Assembly (NCBI RefSeq): GCF_028752835.1
Contig: NZ_CP087952.1
Location: 2,213,041-2,277,040, forward strand
Source of the DNA: Desulfosarcina sp. BuS5
GTDB lineage: Bacteria; Desulfobacterota; Desulfobacteria; Desulfobacterales; BuS5
Reading direction: 5' to 3'
Length of the DNA: 64,000 nucleotides
Below, one piece after another: positions 55,093 to 59,481 of the stretch. Both the position numbers and the translations under genes were made by a program. The stretch's first letter is position 1; each line of letters starts with the position of its first letter. Under the pieces are notes generated by a model. It was given only the letters and a program-made list of their open reading frames with translations, did not search any database and was not told where the DNA came from.

Positions 55093-58000
55093 TTACATTT
55101 CAATATCAAAAGCACCATACTCAGGAAAGCCGGTACCGGCAGGGATCAGTCTACCCATAATAATATTCTCCTTAAGTCCTTTAAGTCTATCAACTTTGCC
55201 TGAAATACTCGCTTCCGCCAGCACCTTTGTTGTCTCCTGAAAAGAAGCTGCCGAAATAAAGCTTTCGGTACTGAGTGATGCTTTGGTTATTCCAAGAATC
55301 AACGATTCGGCAACAGCCGGTTTACCCCCATTCTCCTTAACAGCGCTGTTTATCTCATCAAACCTAATCCGATCGACCTGTTCCTCAAGAATAAAATCGG
55401 TATCCCCCGCGTCAATAATCTTGACACGCTTCATCATCTGATGCACAATAATTTCAATATGTTTGTCATTGATACGAACGCCCTGCAGATTATAAACTTC
55501 CTGAACTTCATTTACCAGGTAACGAGCCAATGCAATTTCACCTTTAATATTAAGAATATCCTGAGGATTCGCTGAACCCCCAATAAGAGGTTCGCCAGCC
55601 TTTACATAATCACCCTCATAAACATTGATATGTTTACCCTGTGGAATCAAATACTCTTTTTTATCGCCAACGTCAACAGGGGTAATCGTAATTTTCCGTT
55701 TTCCCTTTTTTGTGCCTTTTCTAATGGATACATACCCGTCAATTGCACTCAAAATAGCCATCTCTTTTGGTTTGCGAACTTCAAAAAGCTCGGCAACCCT
55801 TGGCAGGCCTCCTGTAATATCTTTTGTCTTGGTTGTAGCTCGCGGCAGTTTGGCGATAACATCTCCAGGCATTACACTATCCCCCTCGTCGACCATAAGT
55901 ATAGCGTCCACAGGCAGATAATAACGAGCCTTCCCCTCAGAGGACTTCCTGTCGGCTGTCTTACCGCTCTTGTCTTTAATAGAAATCCTCGGACGTTCCT
56001 CTACGTGTTTCGATTCTATTATCATGCGACTCGATTTTCCTGTCACAGGGTCTACTTTCACCTGCATTGTTTTTCCCAGGTTTATATCTCCAAATTTGAT
56101 ATCCCCCCCAACCTCGGTCAAAATAGGTGTTGTAAATGGATCCCAGGTTGCAAGCAAATCTCCCGGCTTTACTTGATCACCCTCATTCACATTTATATGG
56201 GCTCCGTAAATTACAGGAAAACGCTCTCGTTCACGGCCTGTGTTGCCAATAATTGCAAATTCACCACCTTTTCGATTCATTACAACAATCTTATTCTCTG
56301 AATTAACCGCAGCGTCAAGATCCATATACTTTATCGTACCATCCGACATTGCCCGGATATCAGCCTGCTCAACCCTTCGGCTGGCTGTTCCTCCGATATG
56401 AAATGTCCGCATTGTCAACTGGGTTCCAGGCTCGCCTATAGACTGGGCGGCTAGAATTCCTACTGCCTGGCCTATCTCAACCGGCCTCCCATGAGCAAGG
56501 TCACGACCGTAACACATAACACATACTCCGTTTTTAACCCTACACGTCAATACAGACCTGATTTTTACAATAATAATACCTGCGGCTTCTATCTTTTCAA
56601 CATCAGCCTCATCAATATATTCACCCATCTTTACAAGCAGTTCATCAGTAAAGGGATCTAAAATATCCTCAGCGGCTACACGTCCCAATATCCTTTCACC
56701 CAGACGCTGAATAACCTCTCCGCCCTCCATTAGAGGCTCTACCTCGATCCCATTCACAGAGCCGCAGTCATGCATAATTACTGTACAGTCTTGGGCAACA
56801 TCGGCCAACCGCCTTGTAAGATATCCTGAATTTGCCGTCTTTAATGCTGTATCAGCCAATCCCTTCCTTGCTCCGTGGGTGGAAATAAAATATTGCAGAA
56901 CCGAAAGTCCCTCTCTAAAATTGGCATTAATGGGAGTCTCTATAATTTCACCTGACGGTTTTGCCATAAGCCCCCTCATCCCAGCCAATTGTCTCATTTG
57001 ATCCTTGCTGCCTCTTGCTCCGGAATCAGCCATCATATAAATAGGATTAAAACTTTCTGTAGGCCCGGATTCCCTGTCTTTATTAATAACAATATCGACA
57101 TCCTCATTATCCGTGGGAGAGGCCATTTTCATAGCATTCATCATCTCATTGGCAACATCATCAGTAGCTTTAGCCCATATATCGACGACTTTATTATATT
57201 TTTCCCCCTGGGTTATGAGACCTTCCGTATACTGCCTGCCTATCTCATTAACCTGTGCATCAGCTCTTTGAATTATATCCTGTTTTGTTGGAGGAATAAT
57301 CATAGCGTCGATGGATATTGATAACCCTCCTTTAGTCGAATATTCATAACCCAGATCCTTCAACCGGTCTGCAAGTATCACAGTAGCTTTCGGCCCAAGG
57401 TTCCTGTACACAGAATCGACAAGTTGGCCAAGAGACTTTTTATCCATTACTTTATTTATTATGTCGAAAGATATATCAGGCTTCTTGGCTACAACCTCAA
57501 AAAGATGGTAGAGATCACCATCAAAAAAGACTTCACTATATGTTCCGGGTTCTTGCGAATAAAGTTTATCCGCTTCCTCGCTTTTTAGATTAAAAAACCT
57601 GTTAAATTCTTCCTTGCTCAGAAAACCGTTATTCCCTTCATCCTGGTTATTTGAATATTCAATGGATAACTCTTTAAAATACTCTCTGTTCTTTAACCTA
57701 TCCAATATAATCTTCGCATCTTCCTCTGTAGAAACCATTATATGGTTCAAGCTCAAGACCTTTTCATTGGGAAGGATCTCGTACAGCAAAACCCGGCCGA
57801 CTGTGGTCTCTTCCCTTACGCCATTGATACGTACTACGATTTTAGAATGAAGATCAACCGCACCTGCGTCAAAGGCTGAACGAACCTCTCCCAAACTTGA
57901 AAATAGCTTGCCATCACCTTGCAAACCGGCAATTCCCCTAGTCATGTAATATATACCTAGAACAATATCCTGACTTGGAACAATGATAGGGTTGCCATTA

Positions 58001-59481
58001 GCAGGGGAAAGAATATTATCGCTGGACAGAACCAATACCCTGGCCTCAATCTGTGATTCAATAGAAAGGGGTATATGAACTGCCATCTGATCCCCGTCAA
58101 AGTCTGCATTAAATGCGGTGCAAACAAGCGGGTGAAGCTGAATAGCCTTGCCCCCTATAAGTATAGGTTCAAAGGCCTGTATTCCCAATCGATGAAGAGT
58201 GGGAGCGCGGTTAAGGAAAATAGGATATTCCTTCACAACCTCATCCAAGGCATCCCAAACCTCCGGCGTCTCTCTTTCTACTATTTTTTTGGCACTCTTG
58301 ACAGTAGAAACTATGCCTTTTTTTTCAAGGCGATAATAGACAAAAGGTTTAAAGAGCTCGAGAGCCATTTTCTTTGGAAGACCGCACTGGTGTAATCTGA
58401 GATTAGGTCCTACCGTAATAACAGTACGACCGGAATAATCGACCCTTTTTCCGAGCAGATTCTGACGGAAACGCCCCTGCTTACCCTTTAATGTGTCACT
58501 TAAGGATTTTAAAGGACGTTTATTGGTACCGAGAATGACCCTGCCCTGTCTTCCGTTATCAAATAGCACGTCCACGGCTTCCTGCAACATCCTCTTCTCG
58601 TTGCGAACTATAATATCAGGTGCCTTTAAGTCTATAAGACGTTTTAAACGATTATTACGATTAATTACCCTCCGGTAAAGATCATTAAGATCGGAAGTAG
58701 CAAATCTTCCGCCTTCAAGAGGAACAAGCGGACGCAAATCAGGCGGCAGGACAGGAATACACTCCATTATCATACAAACCGGATTCAGGCCTGAACGCCT
58801 GAAAGAATCAATTACCTTCAGTCTTTTAGAATATTTCTGGCGCTTGGCAATGGCGCCGGTGGTCTGGATATCTGTTCTTAGCTGAGCATATTCCGCTTCA
58901 AGATCAACATTTTCCAACATCTTTTTAACAGCCTCAGCGCCGATGCCGACCTCAAAATTCTCACCAAAAGTATCAAGGGCCTCATAATACTTGTCGTCAG
59001 ACAACAACTGCCCGCGCGTTAACCCGGTATCCTTAGGATCCATTACTATATAACAGTCGAAATAGAGTACTTTCTCAAGATTTTTTAAGGTCATATCGAG
59101 AAGAGTGCCGATTTTGCTGGGCAGACTCTTCAAAAACCATATATGCGCGCAAGGTGAGGCGAGCTCAATATGAGCCATTCTTTCTCTGCGGACTTTTGAC
59201 TGTATTACTTCAACGCCGCATTTCTCACAGATAACCCCCCTATGCTTCATACGTTTATATTTGCCGCAATTACATTCATAATCCTTGGTAGGACCAAAAA
59301 TCTTGGCACAAAAAAGACCATCACGTTCAGGTTTAAACGTCCTGTAATTTATTGTTTCGGGTTTCTTAATCTCCCCAAACGACCATTTACGGATCTGCTC
59401 CGGTGATGCCAACTCTATTTTTATACCGGAATATATTTTAGGGTCCATCGGTTTGGCAAAAAAATCGTATAATGTTTCCAA
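55093..59481 (-). CDS. rpoC: RNA polymerase beta' subunit with an inserted parvulin-like domain
   Basis: 1462 residues. The N-terminal zinc site is [20 protein letters not shown], the catalytic Mg motif [14 protein letters not shown], and the bridge helix/trigger loop lies near [14 protein letters not shown]. An SI3-like insertion follows the trigger region. Residues about 575-668 form an extra module between [11 protein letters not shown] and [10 protein letters not shown]. It has the order of conserved blocks of parvulin isomerases: [34 protein letters not shown], then [19 protein letters not shown]. The gene follows rpoB by 20 bp. Core function is certain; the role of the extra module is unknown. 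Confidence 0.97.

Follow-up and report, generated by a model that had tools for sequence, protein, structure and literature searches.

The parvulin domains of SurA P1 and PpiD are non-catalytic. In these periplasmic chaperone domains the fold binds peptides or acts as a scaffold and has no strong isomerase activity. E. coli has two proteins akin to prolyl isomerases, DksA and PpiC, which act on RNA polymerase or its factors in trans, as separate proteins (PMC7461557, PMC7353009). For DksA, a secondary-channel factor, weak PPIase activity was reported (PMC7461557), and NusG, Rho, SuhB and RpoA are recovered in pull-downs with PpiC (PMC7353009). RNA polymerase itself carries clade-wide, vertically inherited domains in loops of its β' subunit, examples being SI3, the Thermus non-conserved domain, HABAS and BEAN (PMC11515920). 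A 2024 survey of β/β' insertions describes HABAS, BEAN and sLC domains; one or two folds account for most of the β' insertions surveyed, and the survey text assigns a parvulin insertion to no lineage (PMC11515920). Nor did we find a parvulin domain of a bacterial RNA polymerase reported in the open-access literature, in agreement with the preliminary description of this DNA, which knew of no standard β' insertion of this type. The main catalogue of lineage-specific RNA polymerase insertions is reportedly that of Lane and Darst from 2010, where a listing is possible, and public domain databases may list an RpoC-parvulin architecture automatically.

The β' subunit encoded in the window (the whole stretch of 64,000 nucleotides from Desulfosarcina sp. 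BuS5 analysed here) combines features of these systems. Its insert resembles SI3, HABAS and BEAN in being a clade-wide, vertically inherited domain in a β' loop, but differs from HABAS, BEAN and sLC in its predicted parvulin fold and in its site (E. coli 584–588), which lies near the bD4/uD3 border. In profile, order of elements and predicted fold it is akin to parvulins of the PrsA/PpiC/SurA type (PF00639, PF13616, PF13145), with PrsA, SurA, PpiD and NmPin as the closest solved chains. Unlike these parvulins, however, it is cytoplasmic and internal to RNA polymerase, has additional residues separating the pocket helix from the one that follows, and lacks the equivalents of Cys/Asp40 and F81. 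With SurA P1 and PpiD, whose domain 2kgj is among its top fold matches, it would share a use of the fold without strong catalysis, although it is a β' insertion and not a periplasmic chaperone domain. In contrast to DksA and PpiC it is part of the polymerase.

The insertion in RpoC and its predicted fold

The features discussed below are the following (window coordinates).

55093–59481, minus strand: rpoC, 1462-aa β' subunit of RNA polymerase, which hosts the insertion (open reading frame; TIGR02386 rpoC_TIGR, 1726 bits)
57478–57768, minus strand: inserted parvulin (PpiC/rotamase-type) domain, RpoC aa 572–668 (PF00639; alignment boundaries; AlphaFold2 and Foldseek)
57733–57747, minus strand: NHIMV, aa 579–583, strand β1, His aligned to PpiC His8 (alignment)
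57652–57678, minus strand: FKELSIEYS helix, aa 602–610 (alignment)
57604–57627, minus strand: GFLSKEEF, aa 619–626, class-specific motif G-L-L-x-K-[DE]-E-F (alignment)
57490–57546, minus strand: 19-residue segment with the last strands, aa 646–664, His aligned to PpiC His84 (alignment)
57355–57390, minus strand: host residues K698, I702, D705 and D709, equivalent to E. coli β' K615, I619, D622 and Y626 (alignment)

Alignment with RpoCs that lack the insert identifies 97 residues absent from ordinary β'. P571 is the last residue in common with the insert-less proteins and aligns with E. coli β' P584, while D669 aligns with G586 (phmmer against solved RNA polymerases). The insertion site is a short loop of the β' pore-1 region, and the start of the insert falls in the pore-1 domain (RNA_pol_Rpb1_3). 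The interruption of a conserved β' run, which the preliminary description had recognized, is borne out by this alignment, and its four motifs were all found at the RpoC positions it gave. Its extent of about 93 residues (575–668; 57481–57759) located the domain correctly, but the alignment sets slightly wider limits (aa 572–668; 57478–57768). The G+C content of the insert is lower than that of the remaining rpoC (0.356 versus 0.435).

The parvulin type, likewise claimed from the motifs, is upheld by PF00639, by a profile search of the PDB and by Foldseek. PF00639 scores 23.3 bits on the isolated piece from the window, above the cut-off of 21.7, and 19.4 bits, slightly under it, when the insert is searched in a 563-aa context. 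In the scan of full-length RpoC from this genome PF00639 is not reported; thus, routine annotation would miss the domain here. PF00639 is also found in 29 of 30 homologous inserts (E ≤ 0.01, best 5e-13), and in 26 of the 30 even when they are searched inside longer RpoC fragments. A profile built from the insert alignment finds PrsA in the PDB at 3e-13, followed by SurA, PpiC, Par14 and Pin1. Conversely, a profile of stand-alone parvulins scores 40.5 bits on the window insert, with a median of 56.7 over 81 inserts and a maximum of 6.5 bits on 405 shuffled ones.

Structure prediction of the inserted region, as suggested in the preliminary description, points in the same direction. The AlphaFold2 model of the insert (pLDDT 79.6, pTM 0.70) has the parvulin order of elements (β-α3-β-α-β2), and its top Foldseek matches in the PDB are parvulins (SurA, PpiD, NmPin, PrsA, Par14, Pin1 and others) with probabilities of 0.99–1.00 and query-normalised TM scores of 0.58–0.73. 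In the model of a 563-aa RpoC fragment, which is poor overall (pLDDT 57.7, pTM 0.40), the insert part is confident. The profile scores, the shuffles and the predicted fold rule out a chance resemblance of motifs. A known non-isomerase β' insertion such as HABAS or BEAN is also ruled out, since predicted fold and listed matches are those of parvulins. By sequence and by predicted fold, the RpoC insert is a parvulin domain.

A further parvulin gene of the same genome (L002; C1:3369639-3369866, minus strand) has its domain split over two frames with stop codons. It adjoins a transposase-like ORF and looks like a pseudogene.

Distribution and inheritance in Desulfobacteria

With the window insert as query, matches were obtained in 47 of 58 relatives, nearly all of them in ORFs of RpoC size. 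The insert profile has a match in all 242 genomes of the class (one order); the best matches listed lie in ORFs of about 1460–1510 aa, but for some genomes the top match is a stand-alone parvulin. We inspected directly the 30 genomes whose signal was weakest. Fifteen of them have rpoC, ten with the insert (some copies being degenerate) and five without, while rpoC is absent from the assembly in 14 of the other 15 genomes and present only as a fragment in the last. Genomes in which rpoC was unmatched with two different queries at a listed completeness of 90–100% are G004, G016, G091, G093, G108, G114 and G136, and likewise G137, G141, G081, G149, G161, G224 and G226.

Outside the class the picture is different. 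The insert is absent from 30 of 30 RpoCs of other lineages of the phylum, which have a loop of about nine residues at the site (23 residues in one of them). Among 374 genomes outside the order, the matches listed for the insert profile lie in ORFs of 227–668 aa, none of RpoC size, and represent stand-alone parvulins only. Thus, the comparison of RpoC across Desulfobacterota that the preliminary description had called for finds the insert at the same site in nearly the whole class Desulfobacteria. Within our sampling of the phylum it occupies one site, is confined to one clade and is ancestral there, as expected of a lineage-specific β' insertion. The named loci with the insert are assigned to Desulfobacteraceae, Desulfobacterales or Deltaproteobacteria and include the isolate Desulfatitalea alkaliphila; an assembly artefact is ruled out, since numerous independent genomes, this isolate among them, have the insert at an identical site.

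Some families have longer RpoC inserts (L127, L130, L132 and L067; 116–132 aa), with the additional residues lying inside the parvulin domain. In L127, L130 and L132 this nested expansion is located in the loop before the GLLxKDEF motif.

The history of the insert was traced on a tree of the RpoC host sequence, from which the insert had been removed. Class and outgroup are split in this tree with support of 100/99, and the presence of the insert requires four changes on it, namely one gain and three losses; at least three changes are forced by well-supported branches. The losses concern G193, a three-genome clade in family f23, and G008. In G193 a clean in-frame deletion joins DNI to KRPEIPF, and five congeners keep the domain. 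The loss in G008 is the least certain, because on the tree this genome groups with an insert-bearing row close to the base. As far as tree and sampling go, the insert goes back to a single gain at the root of the class Desulfobacteria, followed by vertical inheritance; consequently it is old and dispensable. The horizontal acquisition considered in the preliminary description is therefore not borne out as a recent event: the insert tracks the RpoC tree, which rules out a recent transfer.

Judging from dN/dS, the insert is under relaxed but purifying selection. The ratio is 0.44 in the insert versus 0.12 and 0.07 in the flanks, calculated over 97 codons for one species pair, formed with the closest relative, whose host part shares 97% identity. 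The insert diverges fast, with 30–40% identity compared with about 70% in the host fragment.

Active-site residues and the peptide pocket

To compare functional positions, 81 different inserts were aligned with PrsA, 14 stand-alone parvulins and E. coli PpiC, for which we used what we take to be the reference sequence. Both active-site histidines (PpiC His8 and His84) are found in 54 of the 81 inserts, including that of the window; His8 is present in 60 and His84 in 65. The position of the catalytic Cys40/Asp, two residues past FKELSIEYS, is Asn in the window and mostly Ser, Gly or Ala in relatives (Ser 46, Gly 13, Ala 10, Asp 2 among the 81). Its loss alone is weak evidence, since stand-alone parvulins of the phylum also vary there (Cys or Asp in 4 of 14). 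Cys/Asp40 together with both histidines, however, occurs in only two of the 81 inserts. The position of PpiC Phe81, in the last-strand segment, is Asp in the window and Asp (30), Gly (16), Glu (15) or Asn (10) in the set of inserts, versus Tyr (8) or Phe (4) in the 14 stand-alone parvulins. In E. coli PpiC, the F81A exchange abolishes isomerase activity (PMC7353009).

The substrate pocket appears better preserved. The Phe of GFLSKEEF aligns with the pocket residue Met57 of PpiC; this equivalent is Phe in 71 of 81 inserts and that of Phe61 is Phe or Tyr in 79, although the assignment depends on the alignment: the columns concerned fell differently in an earlier version that included a fragment of PrsA. 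Both positions are located in the class-specific GLLxKDEFxRIF helix. M57A in E. coli PpiC leads to a loss of clients such as NusG (PMC7353009). Together with the pull-downs and the F81A phenotype, this indicates that parvulin pockets can bind transcription proteins. The residue pattern fits a domain in which catalysis has been lost and the peptide pocket retained. Hence, of the isomerase-type domain proposed in the preliminary description the parvulin type stands, but activity appears doubtful, with the Cys/Asp and F81 positions lost and the histidines variable. Weak activity may be possible in the species of the window, because both histidines are present.

Place on the polymerase and possible role

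In E. coli, the β' helix K598–K615 connects the point of DksA contact within the secondary channel with the omega-side ppGpp site 1 (PMC7676912). The insert is located about 10–14 residues before K598/K599, the start of this helix. The site 1 residues K615, I619 and D622 are kept in the window as K698, I702 and D705, which lie at the end of the helix that begins just past the insertion. As the insert precedes the helix by about ten residues, a placement on the secondary-channel side is reasonable, and it is plausible from the aligned positions that the domain faces the secondary channel or the omega side. Omega and DksA-type proteins are present in this genome. For the omega subunit (L164, C1:2323465 of the same genome) the sequence is MEALVARITMEDCL; with GTG as start codon its N-terminus would become MAR, as is typical of ppGpp site 1. 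DksA/TraR-type zinc-finger proteins were found in 36 of 36 genomes, insert-bearing or not. Their occurrence consequently has no phylogenetic association with the insert, and a replacement of DksA by the insert is ruled out.

We propose that the domain is a vertically inherited, dispensable and probably non-catalytic peptide-docking module, derived from a parvulin and located near the secondary-channel/omega side, and give this reading a probability of about one half. As far as tree and sampling go, a parvulin domain entered the β' pore-1 loop once, in the common ancestor of the class. Most descendants then kept the fold and the hydrophobic peptide pocket and lost residues for efficient prolyl isomerisation; this loss of residues is seen in the alignment, and a loss of activity presumably went with it. 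The tethered module most likely docks a segment with proline or aromatic residues, predicted to belong to a transcription factor, a ribosomal or nascent protein, or a neighbouring part of RNA polymerase. Since the domain was lost at least three times, it presumably modulates transcription rather than enabling it.

Other explanations have to be weighed against this docking module. A tolerated, nearly neutral insertion, i.e. a domain that landed by accident long ago in a permissive surface loop and folds but has little function, would also account for the relaxed constraint, the repeated loss and the degenerate copies (L119, L121, L123), and the fast divergence and variable lengths are in line with it. 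We consider it somewhat unlikely, because almost every lineage of this old class keeps the fold intact, dN/dS is well under 1, and the conserved G-L-L-x-K-D-E-F-x-R-I-F and YHIF exceed the needs of mere solubility. It is improbable that the domain works as an active prolyl isomerase within RNA polymerase, with the polymerase itself, a factor (NusG, sigma, DksA) or a nascent protein as target. The fold, the hydrophobic pocket, the histidine pairs and the weak activity of DksA would agree with an enzyme, but the full set of Cys/Asp40 and both histidines is very rare, several inserts miss one or both histidines, and the F81 position, at which PpiC does not tolerate Ala, is non-aromatic in nearly all inserts compared with Phe or Tyr in 12 of 14 stand-alone parvulins. 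Highly doubtful is a regulatory gate that contacts DksA/Gre factors or the K598–K615 helix and tunes the response to ppGpp or to factors. The short distance to the helix that joins the DksA contact to site 1, the conserved K, I and D of this site and the presence of DksA-type proteins and omega would suit such a gate; however, DksA/TraR-type proteins occur regardless of the insert, and the geometry at the omega side is deduced from sequence.

The insert offers a clean phylogenetic marker for the class Desulfobacteria. Lineage-specific insertions alter the regulation of RNA polymerase, and here the transcription machinery of a major group of sulfate reducers has incorporated the fold of a protein-quality-control enzyme. 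The domain provides a direct test case of whether a peptide-binding or prolyl-isomerase module can be part of RNA polymerase, for which closely related insert-less species are natural deletion controls. As a tentative extension of the docking module, a folding enzyme could have been converted class-wide into an integral docking or chaperone module that captures a proline-containing partner beside the secondary channel. If true, NusG, the nascent chain or one of the ribosomal proteins might be the partner, and the domain would constitute a built-in coupling device without known counterpart.
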